A stretch of DNA of 28,497 nucleotides. It comes from Actinobacteria bacterium UBA4719. Its GTDB lineage: Bacteria; Actinomycetota; Actinomycetes; Actinomycetales; Dermatophilaceae. Shown one piece after another: positions 6,734 to 28,497 of this stretch. Below the pieces are notes generated by a model. It saw only the letters and a list, made by a program, of their open reading frames with translations, ran no database searches and had not been told where the DNA came from. The stretch covers positions 1,195-29,691 of the forward strand of contig DHJN01000068.1 of assembly GCA_002404345.1 (NCBI GenBank), in the 5' to 3' direction. Numbering within the stretch: the stretch's first letter is position 1; each line of letters opens with the position of its first letter. The position numbers and the translations under genes were made by a program.

Positions 6734-6740
6734 GCCGCAA

Positions 6741-6777: not shown

Positions 6778-6812
6778 GCGCGCCAGAGGCGGCGCTCAAC
6801 TCGCCCAGCCTT

Positions 6813-7982: not shown

Positions 7983-8052
7983 ACCTGGCCCCTTCCGGTG
8001 GTGTGTCGTCATGGACGGCAGCAAGAATGGAGCCTAACGGCAAAGAGAAGGC

Positions 8053-8082: not shown

Positions 8083-8104
8083 ACCTTGTCGCGCGGAGGC
8101 GCTC

Positions 8105-8431: not shown

Positions 8432-8496
8432 GGTGGGGGTCCTTCCTGGTTGATGCGGGTTGGTGGCGCACAGTTTTGGTGCAACTTATTGTTGGC

Positions 8497-8535
8497 GGAA
8501 CACAGTTTTGGGGAACACAGTTTTGGGGAACACAG
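8497..8535. repeat. 15-bp tandem repeat between trxB and trxA
   Basis: GGAACACAGTTTTGG is present at 8497-8511 and 8512-8526, with a partial third copy at 8527-8535. A diverged copy (CACAGTTTTGG) lies at 8469-8479. The array occupies much of the 120-bp spacer between trxB and trxA. Confidence 0.92.
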
Positions 8536-8551
8536 CGCAGCCTCGACCCTG

Positions 8552-9574: not shown

Positions 9575-9686
9575 GCTTGACTTGTCCCTCGTATGTCGGG
9601 TGGCTGCTGTCTGCTCTCAACCGATCCTACGGCGGGATTGTTCCGCCGGGCTCAGGGGCCGCGGGTGCTGCCAACAGCCACGGCGC

Positions 9687-9726
9687 CGCTCAGGGCAGCG
9701 CGGTGGCGCTCAAGGCAGCGCGGTGG
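9687..9726. repeat. 20-bp tandem duplication spanning the anti-sigma stop codon
   Basis: CGCTCAGGGCAGCGCGGTGG (9687-9706) is followed by CGCTCAAGGCAGCGCGGTGG (9707-9726), one mismatch. The stop codon of the - strand anti-sigma gene (9710-9712) falls inside the second copy, so duplication may have changed the last residues. Confidence 0.88.
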
Positions 9727-10555: not shown

Positions 10556-10610
10556 CTCGATGCTGGATCTTGGGACGGTCGGTGGAGAGTGCGCTGACGT
10601 GGGTATGACG

Positions 10611-11213: not shown

Positions 11214-11223
11214 CAGGGCGCAC

Positions 11224-13074: not shown

Positions 13075-13092
13075 CCCTGCTCCTGTCTGTAG

Positions 13093-13120
13093 TTCCTGAC
13101 CAAATGTTCCTGACCAAATG
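13093..13120. repeat. 14-bp tandem duplication between murJ and the pseudokinase gene
   Basis: TTCCTGACCAAATG is repeated exactly at 13093-13106 and 13107-13120. Its period is not a multiple of three, which argues against this stretch being conserved coding sequence and favours the downstream pseudokinase start. Confidence 0.9.
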
Positions 13121-13146
13121 TGTCGAGTCCCCATCCTAGGGTGCGC

Positions 13147-14814: not shown

Positions 14815-14831
14815 TGGTGGAGTCAGTCATT
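14806..14831. repeat. 16-bp period duplication of the murJ start region
   Basis: GTCAGTCATT occurs at 14806-14815 and 14822-14831. On the - strand both give AATGACTGAC. Only the ATG at 14814 is in frame with murJ; the other (14830) is in frame with the end of the DUF6049 gene. Confidence 0.85.
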
Positions 14832-17092
14832 AAGGACACTTCCTGTGCGGCGGGACGCGAGGCGCGGGTTGATCCGCGCCTCAGGGACCGATAGGTGCCG
14901 AGCACGAGGACCAGCCCGGCCAGGCCGCCCAGCACCCAGTAGATCCAGGTGCTCGTGGGTTGCACCCGCACGTCGACGCGGGCGTTCTGCCCCAGGGGTG
15001 TGCCGTTGGGTGTGGTCAGGACGGCCTCGATGGCGACCAGTCCGGCGGCGATGGAGGTGACCTGAAGTGGCACGTTGGTGCGGCTCTTCGCGCCGATCTT
15101 CAGTGGCCCCGGCTGTTGCTCGATCCGCAGCCGCGGTTGGGCGGGGGTCAGGGTCAGGCGCACATCGTGGATCGGGACAGCGAGATCGTTGACCACGGTG
15201 ACCTGCAGGACACCCCGGTCGGCGAAGAAGTTCACCGAGCTCGGCGCTACGGTCACCCTGCGACTGACCGCAGTGATTGCCGACGTCGTGGCGGCGTCGA
15301 TGGCGGCCAGGTCGTCCGGGTGGCCACGCCAACGCGCGGAGAGCTTCTGGTTCTGCGCGTCGGTCCAGCGCACCTGGAAGAGATGCGAGTCGTCACTGAT
15401 GCTGGCGATGCCGGTGATGGCTGACATCGTAATTGCCGTGGTCGCTAGCCCGGCCGAGGTCAACGGGGAGGTGCCCGGGCTCAGCGGATCGGAGGCTGTG
15501 TTCGATACAGGGGGAGGGGTCGCCGTCTCTGGCGACTCTGCTGTGCCTGTCGGGCCGACACCGGGGACCTCTGGGGCCAGCCCCTCGCTTGCGGTGAGCA
15601 GCTGCCCGGTCGTTGTCGGGATCAGCCAGGGGGTCTTGGCGATGGCCGCGAAGAAGTGGCGGAGCACGGTCGGGTCGCCGGCGAACGTCCGGGGTGCGGC
15701 GACAAGCACCGATCGGTTGCGCGTGCCCGGCCGTTCACCGAGCAGGGCCATGGAGTCGGCCAGGAACCGCTGGATGGTGACAGCGCCGGTTGAGCTCGCG
15801 GAGGTCTGCGCAAGTGTCCTGCTCAGGGCCTCGTCGTAGGCCAGCAGGGGCAGCCCTCCGCTCGACCTGCGGCTCGCGTCGCGGGTGGAACCGCTCCGGT
15901 TGGTCAGGGTCGAGGAGGAGGTCACCGCGGCCGCCAGCCCGGGAGCGGAGAAGGCCCGCCGCAGCTGGGCCTCGCTCTGGCTGGTCAGCGTCCCCTCGAC
16001 CGGCCACGCGATGTCGGTGCGCGCCCGGCTGATGGCGGCATCCAGCGTGGAGGGGCGGCTGATCGCCGCGGCCATGGCCCGGGTCCCGGAGGCCAGGTGG
16101 AGAAGGGCGGCGAGGTCGGGATCGGCATACGGCAGGGACCAGAGGGTATGCCGGGGTGCGGCTGCCCTGAGCCGGCGTGCGAGCGCGGCGGTGGACTGGG
16201 TCACCCGGTCGGTCGTCGCCGAGCCGTCCGGTGCGGGTGCGTTCGAGGCACTCGGGGTCGACCCCGGGGCACCTACAGAGGCTGGTTTCAGCGGGGGGCC
16301 AAGAATCGCGGGATCGATCGCCCAGGTGACATCTGCGTTCTCCGTGCCCTGGATCAGCCGGTCCAGACGGGAACCTGCTCCGATGGCCTTGGTCCACGCG
16401 GCGGTCCTGGCGGGGCTGTCAACCCCGTGCAGCGCGGGGTTGGGGTCAAGCGTGAGCGGCACGAGCCAGGCGATCGACAACGGTTCGTAGCGCTTGACCG
16501 AGGACAGTGTCGGCACGAACGTGTGCAGGTCGCCGAGCTCCCGTGTCACGGCGGGCGTTGTCCCGACCACGTCGACACGCAGCGGCAGTACGGCGAAGGA
16601 CTCACGATGGCTGATCGCCGTCGCCGGTACCGTGAGGGCGAATGCCGTGACCGAGCCTGGTGCAAGCGTCCTGCTCAGCGACGTGCGCGCGACTTCCGCC
16701 ATGGGCTGCTCACCCGTGGTTGTGGCCCAGTCGGACACCGCGTCGCGGTTGGTCAGCGGGCTCTGCCCGATGAATGCACGTGCCACCGCTGAGGTGATCG
16801 TGACCGAGCCGGAGTTGCGGACCTTCCCCGTGATGGTGATCGGTGCCCTGGGGACCGCGATCGTCGGCGTGATGGTCGTCAGCGAGATGGTCAGGGGTGA
16901 GGATGACGCTGCGACCGAGGTCGCTGAGGTCGCTGAGGTCGCTGACGTGGCTGAGGTCACCTCGGTGACGGCGCTGGCCATGGGTACCGGTGCGAGGATC
17001 GGCAGCAGTGAGATCACCAGCAGTGAGATCGCCAGCAGGGTGGCGTAGGCGACTCGTCGGCATACCCGCTTGGGGAACTGTTGTCCCGTCAC
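14807..17092 (-). CDS. DUF6049 family secreted, membrane-anchored protein (Rv3909-like)
   Basis: The 761-residue product has a basic N-terminus, a long signal segment (YATLLAISLLVISLLPILAPV) and an Ala/Ser/Thr stretch. A large extracytoplasmic part contains beta-sandwich regions near both ends (for example ITITGKVRNSGSVTITSAVARA and VNFFADRGVLQVTVVNDLAVPI). It ends with one membrane helix (WIYWVLGGLAGLVLVLGTY) and a short basic tail. The family occurs next to murJ throughout Actinobacteria, including Rv3909, and its biochemical role is not known to me; a role with MurJ in wall assembly is inference. I chose GTG 17092, which overlaps the upstream NUDIX stop as GTGA; GTG 17116 is an alternative. 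The signal and Ser/Ala/Thr parts contain 15-bp and 9-bp tandem repeats. Confidence 0.82.
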   Translation of the reverse strand: MTGQQFPKRVCRRVAYATLLAISLLVISLLPILAPVPMASAVTEVTSATSATSATSATSVAASSSPLTISLTTITPTIAVPRAPITITGKVRNSGSVTITSAVARAFIGQSPLTNRDAVSDWATTTGEQPMAEVARTSLSRTLAPGSVTAFALTVPATAISHRESFAVLPLRVDVVGTTPAVTRELGDLHTFVPTLSSVKRYEPLSIAWLVPLTLDPNPALHGVDSPARTAAWTKAIGAGSRLDRLIQGTENADVTWAIDPAILGPPLKPASVGAPGSTPSASNAPAPDGSATTDRVTQSTAALARRLRAAAPRHTLWSLPYADPDLAALLHLASGTRAMAAAISRPSTLDAAISRARTDIAWPVEGTLTSQSEAQLRRAFSAPGLAAAVTSSSTLTNRSGSTRDASRRSSGGLPLLAYDEALSRTLAQTSASSTGAVTIQRFLADSMALLGERPGTRNRSVLVAAPRTFAGDPTVLRHFFAAIAKTPWLIPTTTGQLLTASEGLAPEVPGVGPTGTAESPETATPPPVSNTASDPLSPGTSPLTSAGLATTAITMSAITGIASISDDSHLFQVRWTDAQNQKLSARWRGHPDDLAAIDAATTSAITAVSRRVTVAPSSVNFFADRGVLQVTVVNDLAVPIHDVRLTLTPAQPRLRIEQQPGPLKIGAKSRTNVPLQVTSIAAGLVAIEAVLTTPNGTPLGQNARVDVRVQPTSTWIYWVLGGLAGLVLVLGTYRSLRRGSTRASRPAAQEVSLMTDSTND

Positions 17093-17574
17093 CTCTCGCC
17101 TGCCAGTCGTTCCCACGCGACTTGGGCTATCCGCCGTTCATTGGGGAAGGTGAGGTGCAGGTGGGCGTCGACGAGCGGGAACCACGCCACGTCGATGGCC
17201 TCGGCATCCGGGTCGCCCTCGATACTGAGCTCGCCGCCGGTGGCTTCGAGGAGGTAGTGGTGGACGACCTTGTGGACGCGCGTGCCCGAGGTGGAGAACC
17301 AGTAGTCGATCGTGCCCAGTGAGGCCAGAACGCGTCCTACCATGCCGGTCTCTTCGGCCACCTCACGCACGGCTGTCTGTTCCAGGCTCTCGTCGTTCTC
17401 GAGGTGCCCCTTGGGCAGGCACCACTCGACCCTGCCGGCGCGGTTGCGACGGGCGATGACCGCGACTCGTGCGACCCCATGGTGGACCTCGATGATCACA
17501 CCGCCCGCAGAAGTCTCCTCCACCGCCGGCGGCCGGCGTGGCAGCTGGGTCGGCCGTGGGCAAGAGGAAGTCAT
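17089..17574 (-). CDS. NUDIX hydrolase (MutT4-like position)
   Basis: The 161-residue enzyme contains a complete Nudix box, GHLENDESLEQTAVREVAEE followed by TG, with the three metal-binding glutamates of REVAEE in place (about residues 56-78). SAGGVIIE begins the domain and WCLPKGH precedes the box. NUDIX enzymes hydrolyse nucleoside diphosphates linked to another moiety; substrate is not predictable here. Location between pcnA and the DUF6049 gene equals mutT4 (Rv3908). It starts at ATG 17574, divergent from pcnA across 66 bp, and its stop overlaps the next start by four bases, suggesting it heads the - strand envelope operon. Confidence 0.93.
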   Translation of the reverse strand: MTSSCPRPTQLPRRPPAVEETSAGGVIIEVHHGVARVAVIARRNRAGRVEWCLPKGHLENDESLEQTAVREVAEETGMVGRVLASLGTIDYWFSTSGTRVHKVVHHYLLEATGGELSIEGDPDAEAIDVAWFPLVDAHLHLTFPNERRIAQVAWERLAGER

Positions 17575-17640
17575 TGCGTCACTGTATCCAGCCCGAGAGG
17601 TGGTCCTGTTCGGGTTGGCTGACGGACTGCAACGCGGAGT

Positions 17641-19146
17641 GTGCGTCTCCGTCGCCTACCCTTGGCTCTCGTGGCTGCCTCCGATCCGACCAGTGCCCTC
17701 CTGCGTGAGGCCGTGCGTCGGTTGGCTCCGGTTCTGCCGCTGCTGACCGAGCTGGGCTCGCGCTTTGCCGACGCCGGCCACGAGATCGCCCTGGTGGGTG
17801 GGCCGGTACGCGACGCCTTTCTGGGTCGGGTGTCGCCGGACCTTGACTTGACCACGTCGGCCAGCCCGGAGCACACGGAGGCGATCCTGGCCAGTTGGGC
17901 GGACACCCATTGGGACGTGGGCCGGGCCTTCGGCACGATCGGTGCCCGCAAGGGGAACCAGGTCATCGAGGTGACCACGTATCGCGCGGACGCGTATGAC
18001 CGCGTCAGCCGAAAGCCCATGGTCGCCTTCGGCGACAACCTGCTGGACGATCTGGCCCGACGTGACTTCGCGATCAACGCCATGGCGATGCGGCTGCCCT
18101 CGCTGGAGTTCGTGGACCCCCATGGCGGACTTGCCGATCTGGGGGTCCGGATCCTGCGCACGCCCGGCGCACCCGAGGTGTCGTTCGCCGACGACCCGCT
18201 ACGGATGATGCGAGCCGCGCGCTTCGTCTCGCAACTGGGGTTCACGGCCACGCCCGAGGTGGTCGTGGCGATGACCGAGATGGCTCCGTCGCTGGGGATC
18301 GTGTCGGCAGAGCGGGTCCGTGACGAGTTCGTCAAGCTCATCATGGCCCCTGCCCCTCGCCAGGGACTGGCACTGTTCGTCGAGACAGGCCTGGCCGCGC
18401 ACGTCCTGCCCGAGCTCCCTGCGCTCAAGCTCGAGCTCGACGAGCACCACCGGCACAAGGACGTCTACGAACACTCACTCATCGTGCTCGAGCAGGCCAT
18501 CGCCATGGAGGGCCCGGCTGACGGCCCCGCCGCTTCCGTGCCCGGACCGGACCTCGTTCTGCGCCTGGCCGCCCTGCTGCACGACATCGGCAAACCTGCG
18601 ACCCGCCGCTTCGAGGACGACGGCGGCGGCGTGAGCTTCCATCATCACGAGGTGGTCGGTGCCAAGATGACCGCACGCCGGATGAAGGCGATGCGCTTCG
18701 ACAGGGACACCATCAAGGCGGTGTCCCGGCTCGTCGAGCTGCACCTCCGCTTTCACGGCTACGGAGGTGGGGAGTGGACCGACTCGGCCGTGCGCCGTTA
18801 TGTCACTGACGCCGGACCCCTGTTGCCCCGACTGCACCGCCTGACCCGGTCGGACTGTACGACGCGCAACGTGCGCAAGGCGCGCAGTCTGTCGCGCATC
18901 TATGACGACCTTGAGACCCGTATCGCACGGCTGCTGGAGCAGGAGCAGCTGGACGCCGTGCGTCCCGAGCTGGACGGCAACGAGATCGCCGAGATCCTGG
19001 GGATCGCCCCGGGACCGGTGCTGGGCCGCGCATACAAGCACCTGCTTGCCGTCCGCATGGACCAGGGGCTCATCGGGCGTGAGGCTGCGGTCAAAGCCCT
19101 GCAAGCCTGGTGGGTGGACCAGCCCGAGTCCGACTCAGCCACCTGA
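17641..19146 (+). CDS. pcnA: CCA tRNA nucleotidyltransferase / poly(A) polymerase family (PcnA)
   Basis: The 501-residue class II nucleotidyltransferase has ALVGGPVRDAFLG with the catalytic DLDLTT about a dozen residues later (about 50-72). Then come the RRDFAINAMA motif, the ERVRDEF neck region and an HD phosphohydrolase-like domain (LAALLHDIGKPATR, FHHHEVVGA). A helical C-terminus (LDGNEIAEILGIAPGPVLGRAYKHL) completes it. It adds or repairs the tRNA 3' CCA end, or adds poly(A). Actinobacteria usually have one such gene and it is called pcnA or cca. The GTG at 17641 gives the longest reading; GTG 17671 would remove ten unconserved residues and is also plausible, since neither has a good Shine-Dalgarno site. 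Confidence 0.94.
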   Translation: MRLRRLPLALVAASDPTSALLREAVRRLAPVLPLLTELGSRFADAGHEIALVGGPVRDAFLGRVSPDLDLTTSASPEHTEAILASWADTHWDVGRAFGTIGARKGNQVIEVTTYRADAYDRVSRKPMVAFGDNLLDDLARRDFAINAMAMRLPSLEFVDPHGGLADLGVRILRTPGAPEVSFADDPLRMMRAARFVSQLGFTATPEVVVAMTEMAPSLGIVSAERVRDEFVKLIMAPAPRQGLALFVETGLAAHVLPELPALKLELDEHHRHKDVYEHSLIVLEQAIAMEGPADGPAASVPGPDLVLRLAALLHDIGKPATRRFEDDGGGVSFHHHEVVGAKMTARRMKAMRFDRDTIKAVSRLVELHLRFHGYGGGEWTDSAVRRYVTDAGPLLPRLHRLTRSDCTTRNVRKARSLSRIYDDLETRIARLLEQEQLDAVRPELDGNEIAEILGIAPGPVLGRAYKHLLAVRMDQGLIGREAAVKALQAWWVDQPESDSAT

Positions 19147-19180
19147 CCCTGCATCGCCACGTTTGGCGGGTGACGGAAAG

Positions 19181-19236
19181 CGTTGCGGTTGTTGGGTTTC
19201 AGCCAGGTCCCTCCTCGGCGGCGGGGAGTGCTCCCC
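19181..19236 (+). promoter_or_regulatory. Putative regulatory region with GGGGAGTGCTCCCC inverted repeat
   Basis: The leader of the WXG100-headed gene contains CGTTGCGGT at 19181-19189 and the inverted repeat GGGGAG-TG-CTCCCC at 19223-19236, which ends right at the ATG and covers the Shine-Dalgarno GGGGAG. The same two motifs recur upstream of the small WXG100 gene at 27041. A repressor operator or translation-blocking hairpin are both possible. Confidence 0.5.
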
Positions 19237-20337
19237 ATGTCGGGTTCACCAAATGCCCGTTACCGTGCGCGTCGTGAGCAGGCAGCCGATCGCATGAGCG
19301 AGCTATTGGGAGCCGACAGTCGGCGCGTTGATCTCATTGCCGAGGGGCTCCGTGGGTATTCCCAGGACATCCAGAATCTCCGCACCCTGGCGCAGCGTGC
19401 GGTTGCCGAGATGCGCACTGACTGGCGTGGCCCGGACTTCGAGCGCATCGCCCAGCGCTGGGAGCAGGAGGCCGGGCCGCGCCTCACCGACGTGTCGTCG
19501 GCGTTGAGCACGATGGCCACCACCCTGCGCGCCCAGGCGGAGGAGCAGAGTCGGGTTAGCGGCAACAGCGCAGGCTTGGGCGGCAACCGCACCGATGCCA
19601 GCTCGTCAAGCGTCATCAGTGGTCACCAGGCTGTTGTCGGGAGCGTGATTTGGGGCACCAATGGGGAGAAGGTCAACGAGCCCACGCCACCGGGGCACGA
19701 GAAGCTCAACCTTGCCGGGGGTGACGCCAAGCTCGTCGACGAGAGCCTGGCGTCGGCGAAGGGGGAGGGCGACGGTTTTCAGTACGAGCTATCGGCCGGC
19801 ACAGTCGAGGCTGGGGCTGACTACTCCGTCGATATCGACGCGCACGGCAACCTCGTCGCCTCGGCGGGCGTCTCGGCCGCGGCCTATGCGGGCTACGCCG
19901 CCGGCACGGTGACCCGCGGCAACGACTTCGCGAATGGCACAGCCGAAGGCAAGGCGTACGTGGGCGCCGAGGTCAAGGCTGACGGCTCGGGCTCGATCGG
20001 CCCGGACGGAGCCAGGGGCCATCTTGGAGCAGAGGCGTTCGTGGGCGGTAAGGCCGAAGCCAGTGTCCGCGGCGCAGTCGCTGGTGTCACAGCCACTGCA
20101 GGTGCCGAGATCTCCTATGGGATTGGTGCGCACGCCGACGTGGATGCAGAGATCTCCGCGACCCAGGTGGGGGCTTCCGTGGACATCGGCGCAGCGCTCG
20201 GTATCGGCGCCGGGTTCAAGGCCGACGCCAGCGTCAACCCACAGGAGGTCATGGTCAATGTTGGCCATGCCGCGAACGACGTCGGTGAGGGGCTCACCCA
20301 CGCAGGGGACCAGGTGGTGAGCTTCCTTGACTGGTAG
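19237..20337 (+). CDS. WXG100-headed protein with Ala/Gly-rich C-terminal domain (candidate T7SS substrate)
   Basis: The 366-residue protein starts with a helix-turn-helix WXG100-like domain (about 15-105) with W-R-G at 63-65 in TDWRGPDFERIAQRW. A Ser/Asn/Gly linker (106-150) follows. The C-terminus (about 180-345) is made of alternating short Ala/Gly-rich stretches (for example SAGVSAAAYAGYAAGT, AFVGGKAEASVRGAVAGVTA, DIGAALGIGAGFKADA) and has no cysteine. The first part is what type VII machines recognise. The second has glycine-zipper-like character and could be membrane-active or a repetitive fibre-like fold; I cannot assign it to a named toxin family. I chose ATG 19237 because GGGGAG lies eight bases upstream and the domain begins there. 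It opens the T7SS locus; no adjacent small immunity membrane protein is apparent. Confidence 0.75.
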   Translation: MSGSPNARYRARREQAADRMSELLGADSRRVDLIAEGLRGYSQDIQNLRTLAQRAVAEMRTDWRGPDFERIAQRWEQEAGPRLTDVSSALSTMATTLRAQAEEQSRVSGNSAGLGGNRTDASSSSVISGHQAVVGSVIWGTNGEKVNEPTPPGHEKLNLAGGDAKLVDESLASAKGEGDGFQYELSAGTVEAGADYSVDIDAHGNLVASAGVSAAAYAGYAAGTVTRGNDFANGTAEGKAYVGAEVKADGSGSIGPDGARGHLGAEAFVGGKAEASVRGAVAGVTATAGAEISYGIGAHADVDAEISATQVGASVDIGAALGIGAGFKADASVNPQEVMVNVGHAANDVGEGLTHAGDQVVSFLDW

Positions 20338-20383
20338 TGACCCTGCCCACGAGTGACCCTGCCCACGAGTGACCCTGCCCACG
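20336..20383. repeat. 16-bp tandem repeat, three exact copies
   Basis: AGTGACCCTGCCCACG is present three times at 20336-20351, 20352-20367 and 20368-20383. The stop codon of the WXG100-headed gene (20335-20337) overlaps the first copy. Confidence 0.95.
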
Positions 20384-20419
20384 AACGAGGCTGACGTGTG
20401 AGACATCGAGAGGAAGAGC

Positions 20420-20911
20420 ATGACGATCTTGGCATTCCCCAGCGAGGAGTTCCCGGCACAACCGGCGATCACCCTGCAGGTCCCGGACGACTGGATGGCT
20501 GTGCACTCGCCGGGCACGGTGTTGGCGGCCCGTCGAGTTGCGGAGGAGGGCACCTTCGTTCCCAACGTGGTCGTCCGAATCGAGCGCCGTCCGGTCGACT
20601 TTGAGGTCTTCGACGCACTCGCCGAGCTCAAGCAGTATGCCGCGCAGCGTGAGCAGGGGACGACCTCTGAGCCCTACAAGGTTGAGCTGGATGGTCAGCT
20701 TTTCGTCGGCTGCGATCTGTCCTGGGTCGACGACCAGGTCGGCACGGTGCTGCAGGCACACCTTTTCGGAGGCGTTCCCTCGGGTCCGTTCCTTCAGCTG
20801 GTTCAGGTCACGGGGTCCGTTGGCGGGACACAGGCGCGCGAGGACTACCCCACCATCAAGACGATCATGAAGAGCCTCACGGTGACACCGCAGCGCGGAG
20901 CTCGGCGGTGA
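20420..20911 (+). CDS. Small T7SS-locus protein, possible Mog1/PsbP/DUF1795-like (LpqN-type) fold
   Basis: The 163-residue protein has no signal peptide, lipobox or membrane helix. Its layout is an N-terminal PAITLQVPDDWMAVHSPGTV strand-turn, FVPNVVVRIERRP, a helix (DALAELKQYAAQ), paired strands (PYKVELDGQLFVGCDLSW; VLQAHLFGG; FLQLVQVTGSV) and a final helix YPTIKTIMKSL. This order resembles the Mog1/PsbP/DUF1795 fold of LpqN-type proteins and of EagR chaperones that load T6SS effectors. That similarity is by eye and weak. A chaperone role for the neighbouring WXG100-headed protein is inference. ATG 20420 has AGGAAG five bases upstream, and the 3' end overlaps the FHA gene by four bases (GTGA), so the two are coupled. 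Confidence 0.6.
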   Translation: MTILAFPSEEFPAQPAITLQVPDDWMAVHSPGTVLAARRVAEEGTFVPNVVVRIERRPVDFEVFDALAELKQYAAQREQGTTSEPYKVELDGQLFVGCDLSWVDDQVGTVLQAHLFGGVPSGPFLQLVQVTGSVGGTQAREDYPTIKTIMKSLTVTPQRGARR

Positions 20912-21498
20912 GCCGTCTGACGGTCGAGGTGCACGCGCTCCCCTTCTGGCCTGACGAGGCGCCCACGCCCTTGGTCGTGTCCCCGCACGCCGATGATCAC
21001 GACGAGCTGCTGAGCTACGACGACCTGTTCGGGTCGACGCAACAGGCCATGGCCTTTCAAGCCCAGGATGAGAGGGTCACACCGCCGCGGACCGCTGAAG
21101 CTTCACCGCCACCGCCACCGCCACCGCCAGCACCAGCACGAGCGCCAGAGCCGGCGCTGGGAATCCTGCGGCTGTCCACCGGCGACGTAGTGAAACTGGA
21201 CCGAGGGGTGATGTTGGGTCGGGCACCCACGGTCAACCACGACCCGACCAGGGGGGAGGGACCCCTTGTGCTGAGGCTGGCAAGCCCTCAGAACGACATC
21301 TCGCGCAACCACGCAGAAGTTCTGCTCCGGGGGTGGCAGGTGATGGTTCGTGACCTCGGCTCTACCAACGGCACGACCATCGCCCTGCCTGGACAGGAGC
21401 CGAGACGGCTGCGCCCGAACGACGCGCAGGTGATCGAGGCCGGGACGGTGGTGGCACTGGCGAACGAGGTCAGCTTCACCTTTGAGGTCGAGGCCTGA
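20908..21498 (+). CDS. FHA domain protein
   Basis: The 196-residue protein has a variable N-terminus with LLSYDDLFGST, a polyproline stretch (eight Pro at about 68-75), and a C-terminal forkhead-associated domain (about 85-195). The pThr-binding residues are present: GR in MLGRAP, S..H in DISRNHAEV, and the LGSTNGT loop. FHA domains read phosphothreonine, so this is likely an adaptor that couples a Ser/Thr kinase to the secretion machine. The YDDLFGST segment also recurs, to my memory, ahead of FHA domains in other actinobacterial proteins. The start is GTG 20908, overlapping the upstream stop by four bases. No kinase with intact catalytic motifs lies in the window. Confidence 0.88.
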   Translation: MSRLTVEVHALPFWPDEAPTPLVVSPHADDHDELLSYDDLFGSTQQAMAFQAQDERVTPPRTAEASPPPPPPPPAPARAPEPALGILRLSTGDVVKLDRGVMLGRAPTVNHDPTRGEGPLVLRLASPQNDISRNHAEVLLRGWQVMVRDLGSTNGTTIALPGQEPRRLRPNDAQVIEAGTVVALANEVSFTFEVEA

Positions 21499-21510
21499 GC
21501 CGTAGCACTG

Positions 21511-21552
21511 CCCCCGGACTTCCCGGGGGCCAGCCCCCGGACTTCCCGGGGG
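21511..21552. repeat. 23-bp tandem duplication of a GC hairpin
   Basis: CCCCCGGACTTCCCGGGGG occurs at 21511-21529 and 21534-21552. Each copy can fold a 7-bp CCCCCGG/CCGGGGG stem with an ACTTC loop. It begins about a dozen bases after the FHA gene stop; there is no T-run. The remaining gap to 21671 holds no gene but has a lone TTATCCACA (DnaA-box-like) at 21576-21584. Confidence 0.85.
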
Positions 21553-21671
21553 CTGGCCCCACGCCGGGGCACGGCTGTGGATAAGCGATTCGGCGGCCTC
21601 CTCACCTATGCGAACATGCGGTTTGCCAGCCTCCCGGCCCTGAAGGACCGGATTTCGAGCCTAGGAGTCCG

Positions 21672-22382
21672 ATGATCGACGTGGGCTTGAAGATCCTGTT
21701 CTGTGGTGAAGAGTTCCCGGTCGTGGCAGGTCGGCAGCTGACGATCGGGCGCTGCGGTGACGTCGAGATCGATGACAACCCCTACCTCCACCGCAACTTC
21801 CTGGTAGTCCTCGAGGAGGGCGGTCTGTGGTGGCTGTCCAACGTCGGGTCGACCTTGACGGCGACGGTTGCCGACGACAAGGGGTTGTTGAAGGCGTGGC
21901 TTGCGCCGGGGGCCCGGATCCCGTTGGCGCTCAACCGGATCCTGGTCTGGTTCACTGCTGGGCCGACCACCTACGACTTCGAGATCATCGTGGACAACCC
22001 GGCCTTCGTGTCGGTTGCCCCGGACCCTGGCGAGCAGCACCACTGCGGCGAGATGACCGTCGGTCGCGTGTCGTTTACCCCGGATCAGAAGCTGCTCCTG
22101 GTGGCGTTGTGCGAGGGCTCCTTGTCCCGCAGCCATCCGGGCACCACCCAGATCCCGTCCTCGGCGGCCGCCGCCGCACGGATCGGCTGGACCGTCACCC
22201 GGTTCAACCGCAAGCTGGACAACGTCTGTCAGAAGCTGGCCGACGCTGGCACCCGGGGACTGCACGGTGGGATCGGCAAGCTGGCGAGCAATCGCAAGTC
22301 CCGGCTCGTCGAACACGCGCTGTCGACCCGTTTGGTGACGGTGCACGACCTGATGTTGCTGGATGGCGGGCCAGTCCCGTGA
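21672..22382 (+). CDS. Degenerate-FHA plus winged-helix protein of the T7SS locus
   Basis: The 236-residue product has an N-terminal FHA-like beta domain (about 1-110): LTIGRCGDVEIDD keeps the GR, but the S..H positions read YLHRNF and the STNG loop reads GSTLTA, so phosphothreonine binding is probably lost. The C-terminus (about 135-230; FTPDQKLLLVALCEGSL, PSSAAAAARIGWTVTRFNRKLDNVCQKL, RLVEHALSTRLVT) looks like a winged helix with a recognition helix. It may therefore be a DNA-binding regulator or an adaptor of the secretion ATPase. ATG 21672 has AGGAG four bases upstream. Its stop overlaps the ATPase start as GTGA, so the two are translationally coupled. I know no characterised homologue. 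Confidence 0.75.
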   Translation: MIDVGLKILFCGEEFPVVAGRQLTIGRCGDVEIDDNPYLHRNFLVVLEEGGLWWLSNVGSTLTATVADDKGLLKAWLAPGARIPLALNRILVWFTAGPTTYDFEIIVDNPAFVSVAPDPGEQHHCGEMTVGRVSFTPDQKLLLVALCEGSLSRSHPGTTQIPSSAAAAARIGWTVTRFNRKLDNVCQKLADAGTRGLHGGIGKLASNRKSRLVEHALSTRLVTVHDLMLLDGGPVP

Positions 22383-25300
22383 AGCTGAAGTTCACGCTGC
22401 AGTCGTGCGGGGTGCAGGCGGGCGGGGTGCAGGCATCTGGTGTCGACAGCCGAGATCTGGTCGCCACCATCGACTCCTCGACATCGGTTGGGGACCTGGC
22501 GACCTACCTCGTGCGCGCCGATCCCCAACGGTTCGCGGTGGATGCGGTGGATGCGGTGGATGCGGTGGTTGCCGTGGATGCCGTGGATGCGGGCGAGTTC
22601 ACTCTGGCGCTGGTCGACCAGAACCACCGCGTGGTCGACGCCCGATTGACCGTCCAGGAGTGCGGTCTGCGCTCGGGTGTCACGGTTGCGGTCACCCGCC
22701 GCAGCGAGTACGCCGTTGACGTTGGCCGCGCGGTTGGGGTGGCCAGCATCGTCGCGGGCCCTGACTGCGGCAAGGAGTTCCCGTTGTGGCGCGGCACGGC
22801 ATACATCGGGCGTGAACACGGAGCCGAGATCCAGGTGAGCGACTCCTCGGTCTCACGCCGTCACGCCAAGCTGGTGGTCGCCGACCTCATGGTTTTCCCA
22901 GAGATCTCAGGGGTCCCGGGGATCGTCGCCGTCCCGTCCGTGGAAGTCGTGGACCTCGGATCGGCCAACGGGATCTCGATCGGCGGCGCTGAGGTGCCGC
23001 GCGCGATGCTTCGGGCTGGTGATCGGGTCAGACTAGGCGACACCGAGGTCGAGGTGCGCCTCCTCGGGGACGCCGTTGGCGCGCTCGTGGGTGACTCCGC
23101 TTCCATGGCCTTCTCGAGGTCGCCGCGCATCGCGTCATTGTTCGAGGGTCGCGAGTTTGACTTGCCTGAACTGCCCGAACGCCCCAGACCTTCGCGGCTG
23201 CCGTGGCTGGCCATGATGTTCCCGGCGCTCCTGGGCATGGGCATTTTCGCGTACAACCAAAGCCCGTACTCGTTGATGTTCGTCTTCATGTCGCCGCTGA
23301 TGATGCTCGGCAACTACGTCGAGCAGCGTCGGGGCGGCAAGAAGGATTTCGAGAACCTGATGCGGGACTTCCGCGAGGACATCGAGATCGTCGCGAAGAA
23401 GATCCGTGAGCTGCTTGTGGTCGAGGCCGAGCAGCGCCGCAGGGAAAACCCGTCCAGTGCGGAGTGCGCGAAAGCAGCCCGCCGGTTCAGCCCGCTGCTG
23501 TGGACGCGCCGGGGCGACACACCCGGTTTCCTGCAGCTCCGGCTCGGCCAGGGGACGCTGCCGTCGCGCAGCTCAATGAAGATGCCAGCGGTCGGCCGTT
23601 CCACGGCGCAGGCATGGAGCGAGCTGGCAAGCTCGGTGGAAGGCCTGTCCATCGTTGCCGACGTCCCGGTCGTCGTCGACCCGCTGAGCACCGGCGCGAT
23701 CGGCGTGTCCGGCAGTCGCAGTGTCGCGCTACCTGTGGCCAGATCCCTTGTGCTGCAAGCGGTTTCGTTGCACTCGCCGGCAGAGCTGATCGTGGCCGCC
23801 TTCGCGTCGACCGCCACCGCGCGTGACTGGGACTGGCTCAAGTGGTTGCCACACACGGCGTCGGCGCACAGCCCGATCTCGCTCAGCCACTTGGCCAGCA
23901 CAGCGCCCGCCTGTTCGGCGCTGCTGTCCGACCTCGAGGACCTGGTCGCGTCAGCGGATGAGCCCGGTCAGGATCAGGACCCCTCGCAGCCGAGGGTGCT
24001 CGTCATGGTCGAGAACGATGCGCCGGCTGAGCGCAGTCGTTTGGTCCAGCTCGCCGAGAAGGGCTGGCACAAGGGCGTCTGCGTGGTTTGGTTTGCGCCC
24101 ACGACCCCGTTGCTGCCGGCGGCCTGTCGAGTCTTCCTCGAGGTGAATGGCAGCGAGGGTGGTGCCAGCTATGTCAGGGAGGGCAAGCTCGTCACGCCGG
24201 TCGTGGTCGACACGGTCAGCCTGGAGCAGGCGCTGGCGGCTGCGCGCTCGCTGGCACCCGTCGAGGACTCCGGCGCCCCGGTCGATGACGACAGTGAGCT
24301 GCCCCGCGCGGTCTCGCTGCTGACCCTCACCGGCACCGAGCTGGCCGATTCCGAAGACGCCGTGATCGAGCGCTGGGGTGAGAGCCGGTCCATCGTCACC
24401 GGCCCGTTCGCCCCGCAGACCCCGTACCGCAAGCCCGGCAACCTCCGGGCGATCCTCGGTCAGTCGGCGCAGGGGACGTTCTCCGTGGACCTGCGGGCGG
24501 ACGGCCCGCACGCCCTGGTTGGTGGCACCACTGGTGCGGGCAAGTCGGAGCTCCTGCAGGCCTGGATCCTCGGTATGGCGTCGGCGCACTCCCCGCAGAG
24601 GGTCACCTTTCTGCTCGTGGACTACAAGGGCGGGTCGGCATTCCGCGACTGCGTGCAGCTGCCGCACACCGTCGGTCTGGTCACCGACCTCTCGCCGCAC
24701 CTGGTCCGCCGGGTCCTGACCTCGCTGTCCGCCGAGCTGCGTCATCGCGAGCACCTCCTGGCGCAGTACCAGGCCAAGGACCTTGTCGAGCTCGAGCGGC
24801 GCGGTGAGGTCGATGCCCCACCGAGCCTGGTCATCATCATCGACGAGTTCGCCGCCCTGGTCCAGGAGGTCCCTGAGTTCGTCGAGGGCGTCGTCAACGT
24901 CGCCCAGCGCGGTCGCTCCCTGGGGGTGCACCTGATCCTTGCCACACAACGCCCGGCCGGCGTCATCAAGGACAACCTGCGTGCCAACACCAACCTGCGC
25001 CTGGCCTTGAGGATGGCCGACGAGAACGACAGTGCGGACGTTCTCGGTTCGACCGTGGCCGCATCCTTCGACCTGGATCTGCCCGGTCGCGCTGTGTCCA
25101 AGTGCGGGCCTGGGCGACTGACGCCGTTCCAGACCGGGTATGCCGGTGGCTGGACCTCCGAGACACCTCCGCCACCGGAGATGAGGGTCGAGACGTTGAA
25201 CTACGGTCTCGGCCAGGTGTGGGAGCCGCCGGTCGACGAGGCGGACATCGATCACGACCGGTCTGACCTCGGCCCGACTGACATTCAGCGTCTCGTGTCG

Positions 25301-26881
25301 ACCATCAGTATTGCCGCCAAGACTGCCGAGCTGCCCACTCCACGTGTGCCGTGGTTGCCCGAGCTGGGCCAGGTCTATGACCTGGCGCGACTGCCTACGG
25401 CCCGGCGCGACGATCGGCTGGTCTTCGGCGTGGCGGACGACCCGGACAACCAGGCCCAGCCGGTGGTGGCGTTCAACCCCGACCGGGAGGGCAACCTCGC
25501 GGTCTATGGCGCCAGTGGTTCGGGCAAGAGCGTGTTCCTGCGGACCATCGCCCTCGCGGCCGGGTTCACTGTCCGTGGCGGGCCGTGCCACGTCTACGGC
25601 ATCGACTTCGGCAACCGCGCTCTGTCCATGCTCGAGTCCCTGCCGCACGTGGGCAGCATCGTGCCCGGAGCCGATCACGAGCGCCTCACCCGTCTGCTGA
25701 TGTTCCTGCGCGAGGCGATTGACGACCGGGCGGTGCGTTACTCCAGGGCCAGCGCAGCCACGATCACCGACTACCGTCGTCTGGCGAACGCCCACGACGA
25801 GCCGCGGATCATCGTGCTGGTGGATGGTCTGGCCGCCTTCCGTGCGGCGTACGAGGTGGGCGGCAGGGTCCGGTGGCTGGACCTGTTCACTGCGCTGGCC
25901 GCCGACGGTCGCCCGGTGGGCGTCCACTTCGTGATCTCGGTGGACCAACGCACCGGTATGCCGAGCTCGCTGGCCTCCGCTGTTCAGAGCCGGGTGGTCC
26001 TGCGGATGGCGAACACCGACGACTACAGCTTCCTCGGCGTTGCCGGCGACGTTCTGAGCATGGCCTCCGCACCTGGCCGAGGACTACTCAACGGCGCCGA
26101 GATCCAGTGTGCCGTCCTGGGTGGCACCTCCGAGGGCTTGGGGCAGGCCCGAGCCGTGAACGCCTTCGGTGCTGCAATGCGAAAGGCGGGCCTGAGTGAG
26201 GCACCCCCGATCCGCAGCCTGACTGACCGGGTCCTGATGAACGATCTTCCATCCGAGGTCGAGGGTCGTCCGGTGCTCGGCGTCGGTTCAACCACCCTTT
26301 CGGCTTTGCCGTTCGAGCCGCGCGGATCGTTCGTGGTCACCGGTCCCTCGGGCAGTGGGCGCACGACAAGTCTCGCGTCTGTGGTCAGGTCGCTGCACCG
26401 GTGGTGCCCGGCCATGACGCTGTACCTCGTCACACCGAGACGTTCCGGCGAGCTGGCCGCTCTTTCGGACTGGACGGACGTCGCTGCCGGCACCGATGCG
26501 ATTGCGGCTTTGACCGCTCGACTGCAAGCGGAGATGGACGACGGTGCCCATCAGGGACCGATGGCGGTCGTCATCGAACGGGTGGACGACCTCGCCGGCA
26601 CCGCAGCGGAGTCGCCCCTCTCTGGTTTGGTCAAGGCCTGTCTCGACCAGGAGCGCTTTGTGGTGGCCGAGGGCGAGACGATGTTCTTCAGCTCAAACTT
26701 CGGGCTGCCCGGTCTGCTGAAGACCTCGCGGTCGGGCCTGGCGCTGCAGCCGGACGGCATCGAAGGCCAGACGGTGTTCCGCTCCAGCTTCCCGGTGTTC
26801 AGCCGGGCTGATCTGCCCGAGGGTCGTGGGTTCCTGGTGGCGCGCGGGCGGCCGGAGATGCTCCAGGTGGCACTTCCCTGA
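22379..26881 (+). CDS. Type VII secretion FtsK/SpoIIIE ATPase, EssC/EccC-like
   Basis: This 1500-residue protein is the motor of the locus. Residues 1-105 look ubiquitin-like (KLKFTLQ, STSVGDLATYL, GEFTLALVDQNHRVVDARLTV, GLRSGVTVAV), interrupted by a Val-Asp-Ala repeat. An FHA domain follows at 120-230 (GREHG, SVSRRHAKL, LGSANGISI). Two membrane helices lie at about 275-291 and 296-313. Three ATPase modules follow. D1 has Walker A GGTTGAGKSE near 714 and Walker B LVIIIDEFA near 817. D2 has GASGSGKSV near 1043 and IIVLVDGL near 1144. D3 has GPSGSGRTT near 1321, with Arg for the usual Lys, and VVIERVDDL near 1394. N-terminal FHA recalls Firmicutes EssC more than mycobacterial EccC. GTG 22379 overlaps the upstream stop by four bases. 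Confidence 0.93.
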   Translation: MKLKFTLQSCGVQAGGVQASGVDSRDLVATIDSSTSVGDLATYLVRADPQRFAVDAVDAVDAVVAVDAVDAGEFTLALVDQNHRVVDARLTVQECGLRSGVTVAVTRRSEYAVDVGRAVGVASIVAGPDCGKEFPLWRGTAYIGREHGAEIQVSDSSVSRRHAKLVVADLMVFPEISGVPGIVAVPSVEVVDLGSANGISIGGAEVPRAMLRAGDRVRLGDTEVEVRLLGDAVGALVGDSASMAFSRSPRIASLFEGREFDLPELPERPRPSRLPWLAMMFPALLGMGIFAYNQSPYSLMFVFMSPLMMLGNYVEQRRGGKKDFENLMRDFREDIEIVAKKIRELLVVEAEQRRRENPSSAECAKAARRFSPLLWTRRGDTPGFLQLRLGQGTLPSRSSMKMPAVGRSTAQAWSELASSVEGLSIVADVPVVVDPLSTGAIGVSGSRSVALPVARSLVLQAVSLHSPAELIVAAFASTATARDWDWLKWLPHTASAHSPISLSHLASTAPACSALLSDLEDLVASADEPGQDQDPSQPRVLVMVENDAPAERSRLVQLAEKGWHKGVCVVWFAPTTPLLPAACRVFLEVNGSEGGASYVREGKLVTPVVVDTVSLEQALAAARSLAPVEDSGAPVDDDSELPRAVSLLTLTGTELADSEDAVIERWGESRSIVTGPFAPQTPYRKPGNLRAILGQSAQGTFSVDLRADGPHALVGGTTGAGKSELLQAWILGMASAHSPQRVTFLLVDYKGGSAFRDCVQLPHTVGLVTDLSPHLVRRVLTSLSAELRHREHLLAQYQAKDLVELERRGEVDAPPSLVIIIDEFAALVQEVPEFVEGVVNVAQRGRSLGVHLILATQRPAGVIKDNLRANTNLRLALRMADENDSADVLGSTVAASFDLDLPGRAVSKCGPGRLTPFQTGYAGGWTSETPPPPEMRVETLNYGLGQVWEPPVDEADIDHDRSDLGPTDIQRLVSTISIAAKTAELPTPRVPWLPELGQVYDLARLPTARRDDRLVFGVADDPDNQAQPVVAFNPDREGNLAVYGASGSGKSVFLRTIALAAGFTVRGGPCHVYGIDFGNRALSMLESLPHVGSIVPGADHERLTRLLMFLREAIDDRAVRYSRASAATITDYRRLANAHDEPRIIVLVDGLAAFRAAYEVGGRVRWLDLFTALAADGRPVGVHFVISVDQRTGMPSSLASAVQSRVVLRMANTDDYSFLGVAGDVLSMASAPGRGLLNGAEIQCAVLGGTSEGLGQARAVNAFGAAMRKAGLSEAPPIRSLTDRVLMNDLPSEVEGRPVLGVGSTTLSALPFEPRGSFVVTGPSGSGRTTSLASVVRSLHRWCPAMTLYLVTPRRSGELAALSDWTDVAAGTDAIAALTARLQAEMDDGAHQGPMAVVIERVDDLAGTAAESPLSGLVKACLDQERFVVAEGETMFFSSNFGLPGLLKTSRSGLALQPDGIEGQTVFRSSFPVFSRADLPEGRGFLVARGRPEMLQVALP
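22545..22590. repeat. 9-bp in-frame repeats in the ATPase N-terminal domain
   Basis: Five to six 9-bp units of the type GATGCGGTG/GATGCCGTG encode Val-Asp-Ala tripeptides at about residues 54-71, inserted in a loop of the ubiquitin-like region. Confidence 0.85.
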
Positions 26882-26901
26882 TGGATCCGAACCGCGAGCA
26901 A

Positions 26902-26970
26902 CGTTGCGGTGCAACGTAGTTGTCAGATGTCTCCAGGAGAAGAAGAGCGTCGCTGGGGAGTCCTCCCCAT
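26902..26970 (+). promoter_or_regulatory. Putative regulatory region with GGGGAGTCCTCCCC inverted repeat
   Basis: Upstream of the first small WXG100 gene are CGTTGCGGT (26902-26910, part of a GTTGC/GCAAC inverted repeat) and GGGGAG-TC-CTCCCC at 26955-26968, followed by AT. The inverted repeat and flanking AT match the 19223-19238 sequence at 15 of 16 positions. The distance between the two motifs is 11 bp longer than at 19181-19236, about one helical turn. This suggests independent transcription of the esx genes under shared control. Confidence 0.5.
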
Positions 26971-27040
26971 CGACAGTGCACGAAGGAGCACCTAGTTTCG
27001 CTGTGTCCGGTGTGGACATGACCTTGGAAGGGAAAAGAAT

Positions 27041-27331
27041 ATGAGCAACGCAGGCGGCGGTTCGTGGGAGGGCATGAACCCCGACGTGGTGGAAGCGCAG
27101 GCTCGTATCCTCAACGGGCTGTCCGAGGAGGTCACCACCCTCATGAACAAGATCGAGGGCGAGGTCACCCAGCTCGCGGATGCATGGCATGGCGAAGACT
27201 CTAGGAAGTTCGCAGCAGAGTGGGCTGGCACGCACAGGCCGGTCTTCACGACGGCGGCCACGCTCCTCGCGAACATGAGCGACACCAGCCAACGCAACGC
27301 CGGTCAGCAGCGGACTGCGTCATCGAGCTGA
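27041..27331 (+). CDS. WXG100 protein (EsxA/EsxB-like)
   Basis: The 96-residue protein is a helical-hairpin WXG100 member with W49-H50-G51 in the turn (LADAWHGEDSRKFAAEW) and a short N-terminal Gly-rich tail with a second W-E-G at 9-11. It has no signal peptide and no tyrosine, so the YxxxD/E signal of mycobacterial ESX partners is absent. It is a predicted substrate and structural partner of the adjacent ATPase, probably pairing with the next gene's product. ATG 27041 follows GGAAGGG at about eight bases. A 159-bp leader separates it from the ATPase gene. Confidence 0.92.
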   Translation: MSNAGGGSWEGMNPDVVEAQARILNGLSEEVTTLMNKIEGEVTQLADAWHGEDSRKFAAEWAGTHRPVFTTAATLLANMSDTSQRNAGQQRTASSS

Positions 27332-27378
27332 CGATTGACCGTCGGTCTTACGGATGCGTCTGTGAATTGACTCTCGGT

Positions 27379-27442
27379 GTGAATGTCTTCTGCAGTGAAT
27401 GTCTTCTGTAGTGAATGTCTTCTGTAGTGAATGTCTTCTGTG
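27379..27442. repeat. 16-bp tandem repeat, four copies, between the two WXG100 genes
   Basis: GTGAATGTCTTCTGTA-type units start at 27379, 27395, 27411 and 27427 with at most one or two differences. They are noticeably A/T-richer than the surroundings and make up about half of the spacer. Confidence 0.93.
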
Positions 27443-27475
27443 GGCAAATGGATTCTTGTGTGAAAGGGGATTGTG

Positions 27476-27748
27476 ATGGCTGTGAGCCAAGGTATGAATC
27501 ATCCGGCAGTTCTGACGATCGCGGGTCAGCTGGACACCGATCAGCAGACGGTGACGGATCTGATGCAGCGCACTCAGACCGCAGTGAACACCCTCGGTCA
27601 GAACTGGTTCGGCAGCGACTCGAGCCAGTTCGCCTCGGACTGGACAGCTCACTCCAGGCAGCTCCAGATGGCTGCGGACGTCATCGCCTCGATGTCCAAG
27701 CAGGCTCGCGTTCAAGCCTCGGACCAGCAGGCCACCTCGACCAGCTAG
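27476..27748 (+). CDS. WXG100 protein, second copy (EsxA/EsxB-like)
   Basis: The 90-residue protein has the WXG100 layout with W44-F45-G46 in LGQNWFGSDSSQFASDW, two predicted helices and a Gln/Ser/Thr-rich tail. It has no tyrosine and thus no YxxxD/E motif. It is clearly diverged from the first WXG100 protein, consistent with a heterodimer. I chose ATG 27476 with AGGGGA five bases upstream; the GTG at 27473 is too close to that site. It ends the locus and is followed by strong hairpins before the convergent inositol-phosphate synthase gene. Confidence 0.92.
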   Translation: MAVSQGMNHPAVLTIAGQLDTDQQTVTDLMQRTQTAVNTLGQNWFGSDSSQFASDWTAHSRQLQMAADVIASMSKQARVQASDQQATSTS

Positions 27749-27902: not shown

Positions 27903-27913
27903 CTACAGGTGCA

Positions 27914-27949
27914 CGAGAGGCCCGGTTCCTTGCGGAACCGGGCCTCTCG
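27914..27949. terminator. Bidirectional terminator hairpin between WXG100 and ino1 genes
   Basis: CGAGAGGCCCGGTTCC (27914-27929) and its exact complement (27934-27949) form a 16-bp perfect stem with a TTGC loop. It is 17 bp past the ino1 stop on the - strand, so it most likely terminates ino1 and may also stop readthrough from the + strand. Confidence 0.88.
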
Positions 27950-27966
27950 TCATATGTCGCGGAAGA

Positions 27967-28497
27967 TCAGCGCTCTTCGTCACCGGCGATGAAGGCCTCG
28001 AGCTTGGCCCGGCCAAGGTCGTCGGGACGCTGCACCGGCGGGGACTTCATCAGATAGGACGAGGCGGACACCAGTGCTCCGCCGATGCCACGGTCCTTGG
28101 CGATCTTGGCCGCGCGGATGGCGTCGATGATGATGCCGGCCGAGTTGGGGGAGTCCCAGACCTCGAGCTTGTACTCGAGGTTCAGCGGGACGTTGCCGAA
28201 GGCGCGACCCTCGAGCCGGACGTAAGCCCACTTGCGGTCGTCGAGCCACTGGATGTAGTCGCTCGGGCCGATGTGGACGTTGCGCTCGCCCATGTCGTGC
28301 TTCATGTTGGACGTGACGGACTGGGTCTTGGAGATCTTCTTGGACTCCAGACGGTCGCGCTCCAGCATGTTCTTGAAGTCCATGTTGCCGCCGACATTCA
28401 GCTGGTACGTGCGGTCCAGCACAACGCCGCGGTCCTCGAAGAGCTTGGCCATGACGCGGTGGGTGATGGTCGCGCCGACCTGGGACTTGATGTCGTC
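27967..28497 (-). CDS. ino1: Inositol-3-phosphate synthase, C-terminal part (partial at window edge)
   Basis: The 176 visible codons are the C-terminal half of myo-inositol-1(3)-phosphate synthase, which converts glucose-6-phosphate to inositol-3-phosphate using NAD. Family motifs seen are [14 protein letters not shown] at the edge, [45 protein letters not shown] and the [28 protein letters not shown] core. In actinobacteria the product feeds mycothiol and phosphatidylinositol synthesis. The reading frame runs off the right edge, so the true start is outside the window; the internal ATG at 28452 is not the start. It is convergent with the T7SS locus. Confidence 0.96.

Follow-up and report, generated by a model that had tools for sequence, protein, structure and literature searches.

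Known type VII secretion systems (T7SSs) share only their ATPase and their WXG100 proteins, and which T7SS parts make the channel is therefore an open question; T7SSa and T7SSb both need several membrane proteins (PMC11217815). T7SSd, found in Olsenella and Bifidobacterium, is an actinobacterial system with TsdA, TsdC, the kinase TsdD, TsdH and an immunoglobulin (Ig)-like protein of 1654 amino acids, TsdI. Its EssC bears an FHA domain, and the system is described as having neither the Ecc/Ess membrane core nor a ubiquitin-like protein (PMC11217815). The PFNA operon of bifidobacteria consists of pkb2, fn3, aaa-atp, duf58 and tgm, with prpC and fha in some species, according to the passages on it in PMC8430577 and PMC6803598. 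Here we describe a seven-gene locus in a 28,497-nucleotide stretch of contig DHJN01000068.1 of Actinobacteria bacterium UBA4719 (Dermatophilaceae), referred to as the window (G000:C101:1195-29691; the genome, G000, is a 3.77 Mb draft in 275 contigs). In our reading, which we consider an even call, the locus is a stripped, vertically inherited T7SS that has lost the PFNA module and likely exports its WXG100 pair via an EssC-like ATPase, here called C.

The passages on PFNA in PMC8430577 and PMC6803598 mention neither FtsK nor type VII secretion, and the words fibronectin, transglutaminase, MoxR and DUF58 do not occur in the main text of PMC11217815. In B. longum, a genome study reported a type VII region to be enriched in infant strains, without using these words. 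A link between PFNA and T7SS was not found in the literature searched, the coverage of which left out preprints and most subscription articles.

Gene content of the locus

A first-pass annotation of the window had proposed seven genes on one strand between pcnA and ino1, two of them for FHA-type proteins. Gene positions and profile matches bore out this content, its coordinates and the single strand. The features are as follows.

17641..19146, plus strand: left flank, CCA tRNA nucleotidyltransferase ('pcnA'; TIGR02692, 722 bits), conserved locus boundary
19237..20337, plus strand: g1, WXG100-headed protein with Gly/Ala-rich C-terminal part, candidate substrate, 366 amino acids
20420..20911, plus strand: g2, small cytosolic LpqN-like protein, candidate chaperone or partner of g1, 163 amino acids
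20908..21498, plus strand: g3, FHA protein, 196 amino acids (PF00498, E 3.7e-8)
21672..22382, plus strand: g4, divergent FHA protein with C-terminal helical part resembling a helix-turn-helix, 236 amino acids
22379..26881, plus strand: C, EssC-like FtsK/SpoIIIE ATPase, 1500 amino acids (TIGR03928, 517 bits)
22379..22702, plus strand: N-terminal domain of C (residues 1-108), probable ubiquitin-like beta-grasp
22805..23038, plus strand: FHA domain of C, phosphothreonine-binding signature intact
23204..23323, plus strand: putative transmembrane helix pair of C (model helices 276-293 and 297-344)
27041..27331, plus strand: g6, WXG100 protein, candidate EsxA/B-like substrate, 96 amino acids (PF06013, 31.7 bits)
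27476..27748, plus strand: g7, second WXG100 protein, 90 amino acids (PF06013, 25.6 bits)
27967..28497, minus strand: right flank, myo-inositol-1-phosphate synthase, partial in the window

The reading frames of g4 and C overlap by 4 bp. The right flank was confirmed by 86% identity to the corresponding protein of locus L007, which is a PF01658 member. Both flanks are common to the window, L005, L007/L051, L052/L031 and L084/L085, and the CCA gene also stands upstream of the locus in L005, L051, L052, L084 and L087. The g6 protein scored above the Pfam PF06013 cut-off and g7, about 33% identical to it, just below (25.6 vs 27.3 bits); no other WXG100 domain was found in the own genome at E<=0.001.

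Loss of the PFNA module in one genus

Scanning 84,980 species genomes yielded 47 loci; the nearer actinobacterial loci among them, L001 to L031, belong to Terrabacter, Janibacter, Pedococcus, Knoellia, Actinomyces, Propionibacteriaceae and others. In Janibacter terrae (L051, L007) the full locus reads CCA, a g1-like gene, two g2-like genes, PP2C, FHA, kinase, g4, a gene for a 454-residue protein, MoxR, DUF58, transglutaminase, C, WXG100, a WXG100-like gene and the inositol phosphate synthase gene. The names kinase, DUF58, MoxR (AAA_3) and TgpA/transglutaminase in the relatives come from Pfam, as do the Big_9, fn3 and cadherin-like domains of a giant protein of more than 1600 amino acids.

For the comparison outside the genus 16 orthologous regions of up to 20 kb each (L087-L102) were used, the long (IG) and short (IGs) fn3/Ig-type proteins being counted as one kind. 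Kinase, MoxR, DUF58 and transglutaminase occurred together in 14 of them, PP2C in 10 and g4 in 14. With the fn3/Ig-type protein or its short form also present, all five kinds were carried by 13 of the 16 regions; in the regions read, L087 was without this protein, its genome having fn3/Ig matches on other contigs, and L091 and L007 had the short form only. None of the five was found in any of the three same-genus loci, the window included, with the flanks unchanged. The genes lost from the window and held by its relatives are of the same five kinds as the bifidobacterial PFNA operon, as the latter is set out in the passages cited above, and in the relatives they are joined by counterparts of prpC and fha, which some bifidobacteria also have.

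Four genomes of the genus were searched with C: G000, G023 (locus L005), G024 and G025. In G023 g3 was absent as well, and in G025 g1, g2 and g3 were absent, so that only CCA, g4, C, two WXG100 genes and the inositol phosphate synthase gene remain; no open reading frame of more than 32 amino acids lies in the gaps between these. The G025 locus is spread over two contigs with the break inside C.

Outside the locus, the L013 transglutaminase as query matched in none of the four genus genomes vs all three relatives, and a second query gave only fragments in three of the four (31-36% over about 120 amino acids). The best kinase match in the genus was 37% identical, vs 56, 64 and 100% (the query itself) in relatives. 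With the L013 fn3/Ig protein as query no match was found in G000 and G023, and short fn3-like matches only in G024 and G025; Janibacter G006 also had no match with this query. Two candidates for relocated genes in the own genome were rejected. The kinase on G000:C180 (37%) stands beside genes that, by the look of their sequences, are for purine synthesis. The transglutaminase fragment on G000:C256 (31%, about 125 amino acids) lies in another MoxR-DUF58-TgpA-like cluster, the genes of which were named from their appearance and not by Pfam.

It is very improbable that the PFNA genes are present in these organisms and only missing from the drafts through an assembly or binning artefact. In favour of this, all the genus genomes are multi-contig drafts, and C of G025 is split over two contigs; however, the window and L005 loci are continuous from CCA to the inositol phosphate synthase gene, g4 is retained directly before C in all three loci, and the transglutaminase is missing from all four genomes.

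Some loci outside the genus also lack PFNA genes. L099 and L102 have no linked PFNA set, L099 having only housekeeping-like kinase and PP2C matches, and L029 has no PFNA gene in its 24 kb. As the genomes of these three (G035, G099 and G021) hold a PFNA-like transglutaminase, we regard them as rearrangements and not as the same loss. In L029, proteins of 569 and 1438 amino acids (7369-9806 and 15495-19811) flank the Propionicimonas ATPase; they have a common N-terminal sequence and internal transmembrane segments and are possible T7SS substrates.

The first-pass annotation had called the locus a reduced actinobacterial T7SS for want of membrane-core genes. Reduced it is, but the reduction consists of the lost PFNA genes and not of the absent Ecc/Ess core. 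The real finding, in our view, is that one genus has a T7SS core which is derived, free of PFNA genes and under selection; its loss history looks new.

Comparison with described systems

Likeness to T7SSd was judged from the gene content and domains described for it. The window shares with T7SSd its occurrence in Actinomycetota, an EssC-like ATPase, an FHA domain with the phosphothreonine signature kept, WXG100 proteins and the lack of an Ecc/Ess core, and the full-locus relatives in addition have a transmembrane kinase comparable to TsdD and a giant Ig/fn3 protein comparable to TsdI. The full loci combine T7SSd-like and PFNA gene sets, and we infer that TsdD would be Pkb2 and TsdI would be FN3. 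In contrast to T7SSd, the window has two WXG100 proteins in place of the one TsdA, and no TsdD-like transmembrane Ser/Thr kinase stands between its flanks or in the two other same-genus loci. There is no TsdI-like match in G000 and G023 (L013 protein as query) and no TsdH-like single-transmembrane protein among g1-g4, g6 and g7, the search being confined to these genes. A ubiquitin-like domain seems to be fused to the ATPase, whereas T7SSd was reported to be without one. As the kinase, TsdI and TsdH features are missing, we do not file the window as a T7SSd member and treat it as a reduced relative.

The T7SSb of Bacillota (EssC/YukB) resembles the window in that EssC is the best NCBIfam match of C and the FHA domain precedes the transmembrane pair. 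However, EssC has two FHA domains lacking the phosphothreonine residues, as far as described in PMC11217815 and PMC9600267, whereas C has one with the residues kept; the window genome is also without EssB and EsaA, and there is no separate EsaB/YukD. With T7SSa (ESX) of mycobacteria the locus shares an FtsK-type ATPase and a WXG100 pair in Actinomycetota. It differs in that EccB is missing from the own genome, EccD from the genus and a mycosin over the cut-off from the own genome, and in that C has an FHA domain, which EccC does not. The PP2C, separate FHA protein, second WXG100 protein and kinase of T7SSe are resembled by the full-locus relatives, but T7SSe has its ubiquitin-like protein separate and is confined to Bacillota (PMC11217815).

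Absence of the known membrane core

Genome-wide profile searches agreed with the earlier observation, made on the window alone, that EccB, EccD, MycP, EssB and EsaA are missing, and no complete core was found elsewhere in the genome for these families. No EccB match turned up in the own genome at E<=10, in a search that had no mycobacterial positive control. EccD was found in none of the four genus genomes, and over the cut-off in four of 34 genomes: the two mycobacterial controls, G076 and G019. EssB/YukC had no match in the 34 genomes at E<=0.01, with three of 14 controls matched, B. subtilis among them. EsaA/YueB was over the cut-off in none of the 34; matches below it occurred in 15, none of these being one of the four genus genomes. 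The mycosin MycP was over the cut-off only in the two mycobacterial controls, and subtilase matches of some kind, found in 32 of the 34 genomes and mostly below the mycosin cut-off, were not counted as MycP. The highest-scoring of these in the own genome, on G000:C195, is 998 amino acids long and has a hydrophobic stretch at its N-terminus; the 12 kb read around it showed no recognisable T7SS-like gene.

As EccD is over the cut-off in only two of 32 non-mycobacterial genomes and EssB in none, the absence of EccB/D and EssB/EsaA is a trait of a whole actinobacterial group and not what sets this locus apart. Nor is a missing known membrane core in itself new, as it was already described for T7SSd (main text of PMC11217815).

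A strong YukD match in the own genome (G000:C82, E 6.5e-14), the sole strong one, was rejected as a candidate for the missing EsaB. The genes around it encode ThiF (E1), UQ_con (E2), JAB-LysM and a RING/zinc-ribbon protein, and the E1, E2 and JAB genes make this a ubiquitin-like conjugation operon and not a T7SS. In L050 (G000:C82:16001-36000) the operon at 5036-12677 encodes the RING/zinc-ribbon protein, E2, two membrane proteins, the YukD-like ubiquitin, E1 and JAB-LysM.

A hydropathy scan of g1-g4, g6 and g7 found no transmembrane segment, which leaves C as the only membrane protein encoded by the locus. The machine may instead be a working T7SS completed by unlinked membrane parts of an undescribed family, with the PFNA module alone lost, an alternative that we consider unlikely but the most serious one. 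T7SSa and T7SSb need several membrane proteins (PMC11217815). The full loci likewise encode several (kinase, DUF58 and transglutaminase), so the ancestor probably used more than C. No candidate for such partners was found, however, in a search limited to known families; those of the Ecc/Ess core that were searched (EccB, EccD, EssB and EsaA) are absent, and in G025 no linked gene is left.

Domains of the ATPase

The best NCBIfam match of C was EssC (TIGR03928, E 1e-154), below the model cut-off of 778.4; EccCa (352 bits) and EccCb (290 bits) both scored lower than EssC. Walker A motifs were found at residues 716, 1044 and 1322, and a canonical Walker B (IIIDE), by eye, only in the first ATPase domain. 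Pfam placed an FHA domain at residues 143-220, in which G144, R145, S159, H162 and N197 were kept in all 20 aligned members, so phosphothreonine binding is probable although the local kinase has been lost. The AlphaFold2 model (mean predicted local distance difference test score, pLDDT, 75.7; predicted template modelling score, pTM, 0.44; loops poor) gave the two helices listed above as the putative pair. In relatives the same pair reached hydropathy means of 1.8-2.5 over 19 residues and is clearly transmembrane.

The N-terminal 108 residues are conserved across the 20 aligned members, and the model gave strands 2-13 and 16-30, helix 37-47, strand 74-78, helix 92-95 and strand 101-107, i.e. 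the order beta-beta-alpha-beta-helix-beta. Pfam found YukD (PF08817) in two of the 20 N-termini (best E 0.035) and TmoB in two (best E 0.11), both weak; the TmoB match reached E 0.0046 when the N-terminal piece was scanned alone. In whole-genome searches the YukD model matched ATPase N-termini weakly (L031 E 0.016, L007 0.25, L008 0.22), and five of six PDB matches were ubiquitin-fold proteins, again all weak (E 0.08-0.29). Comparison by hhalign was not significant with seven Bacillota EsaB-like proteins (probability 0.7%) or with the YukD-like protein of C82 (3.2%). An unrelated alignment gave 0.9%, so this test does not separate the three. The Foldseek and VIA-align lists were filled by FHA structures, so the domain was barely probed by fold. 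That a ubiquitin-like domain is fused to the ATPase, as had been suggested before, is likely: the predicted fold and the YukD, TmoB and PDB matches point to it, each signal being weak, but the comparison with EsaB-like proteins does not. Inside this predicted domain, at 22526-22597 of the window, 9-bp tandem repeats encode a VDA-rich insert that is absent from the other aligned members.

Phylogeny and selection

A quick IQ-TREE run on 54 ATPase sequences, each taken from residue 420 onwards, placed the window, L005 and L085 in one clade with a Shimodaira-Hasegawa approximate likelihood ratio test (SH-aLRT) support of 100; long branches were flagged for L043, L104 and L033. This reduced trio was nested inside a larger clade, likewise with support of 100, made up of full-locus Intrasporangiaceae and relatives. 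Other EssC-like ATPases with an FHA domain, 33-39% identical to C, formed a clade of their own (L108, L086, L103, L105-L107 and L109-L115); in L108 and L086 these paralogs adjoin Tad-pilus-like genes, and the N-termini of the four inspected by eye look ubiquitin-like and similar to C.

The ratio of non-synonymous to synonymous substitution rates (dN/dS) among the three genus loci was determined by the Nei-Gojobori method. For C it was 0.26-0.30 in the N-terminal part and 0.17-0.19 in the rest, for g4 0.16-0.24, for g6 0.09-0.21 and for g7 0.29-0.45; g2 (0.18) and g1 (0.44) were compared in one pair each. The flanks gave 0.10-0.14 (CCA) and 0.03-0.07 (inositol phosphate synthase). The kept genes are under purifying selection, g1 and g7 being the fastest evolving of them. 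Eight full-locus pairs gave 0.10-0.29 for the C-terminal and 0.10-0.47 for the N-terminal part of C, and the genus values, which lie inside these ranges, give no hint that selection on C has relaxed.

It is improbable that there is no export at all, with C and the WXG100 pair kept for a cytosolic or membrane signalling complex or the locus in early decay. Gene loss is ongoing (g3 gone in G023, g1-g3 in G025), g1 and g7 evolve fastest, and the putative transmembrane pair of C is weak in the window. However, the frames of C, g4 and g6 are open with dN/dS values like those of full-locus relatives, and in C the three Walker A motifs are intact, as is the first Walker B.

Accessory genes

The WXG100 head of g1 is weak (18.2 bits; TIGR03930, E 6.8e-5). 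Among the 47 loci returned, six had a g1 match of at least 67 bits, and in all six g2 follows directly, within about 90 bases, which suggests a substrate with its partner; weaker g1 matches of about 40 bits in four loci are small WXG100 proteins. Of 19 aligned g2 members, 16 matched LpqN (PF10738) at E<=0.1, the best with 2.1e-6 and the window copy with 0.0076. The fold of LpqN is also that of the DUF1795 chaperones of type VI secretion systems, and this likeness makes a chaperone role for g2 attractive.

The FHA protein g3 had no match in G023 and G025. Pfam did not recognise g4, whose model nevertheless folds as an FHA domain (Foldseek E 1.3e-5), so that both FHA-type proteins proposed earlier were recovered, g3 by PF00498 and g4 by fold. 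The model (mean pLDDT 76.5) shows helices at 137-229, and the C-terminus is conserved, helical and similar to a helix-turn-helix. Homologs of g4 numbered 4130 at E<=0.001 among 6531 candidates. L099 and L102 had no g4 match, so g4 is not universal.

Other features of the window

Two different 16-bp tandem repeats lie in the g1-g2 gap (20336-20393) and the g6-g7 gap (27379-27441). Between g7 and the convergent ino1 gene there is a perfect 17-bp inverted repeat with a 4-base loop (27913-27950), likely the shared terminator of both, which the terminator scan did not list. The region at 2180-17574 holds parB, a thioredoxin-reductase-like gene, genes for an extracytoplasmic function (ECF) sigma factor, a kinase-like protein, MurJ and DUF6049, and NUDIX genes, and the left part of the window is probably origin-proximal.

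Proposed function and significance

We propose that the ancestor of the genus lost the PFNA module (kinase, fn3/Ig protein, MoxR, DUF58, transglutaminase and often PP2C) while the T7SS part stayed. C may assemble into a ring in the membrane, powered by the first of its ATPase domains, and it would recognise and export the g6/g7 pair, plus g1 where present, perhaps delivered by g2. The fused ubiquitin-like domain could fill the role of YukD or of the EccD domain, and through their FHA domains C, g3 and g4 might couple activity to a kinase encoded elsewhere.

Several points weigh against this stripped, exporting T7SS. The hydropathy means of the helix pair in the window are 1.59 and 1.14 over 19 residues, under the threshold of 1.6. 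The genome could hold, at another place, a membrane partner from an unknown family, and the absence of an Ecc/Ess core covers EccB, EccD, EssB, EsaA and mycosin, EccE and EssA not having been searched. The G000:C195 subtilase reached 214.6 bits vs the mycosin cut-off of 278.75. The genus genomes G000, G023, G024 and G025 are drafts of 87, 79, 68 and 96% completeness, and in G024 there was no ortholog of C, only a 35% paralog. To these can be added the weakness of the ubiquitin-like signals and the two hhalign comparisons of the N-terminus of C given above, neither of them significant.

Our further suggestion, made tentatively, is that the locus is a naturally minimal T7SS, in which a single ATPase polypeptide, made up of ubiquitin-like, FHA, transmembrane and FtsK parts, is the only dedicated membrane protein used to export the WXG100 pair; the usual full locus would be this exporter with PFNA added as a separable envelope and signalling module. 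If this were true, fusion to the ATPase would also account for the apparent want of a ubiquitin-like protein in T7SSd. The comparison ties the bifidobacterial PFNA operon to the actinobacterial FHA-type T7SS, and from it one would expect a common locus for PFNA proteins and WXG100 export in many Actinomycetota. A core that is under selection after the loss of all else is a natural deletion experiment, which names the parts to test and may show how few parts this secretion machine needs.

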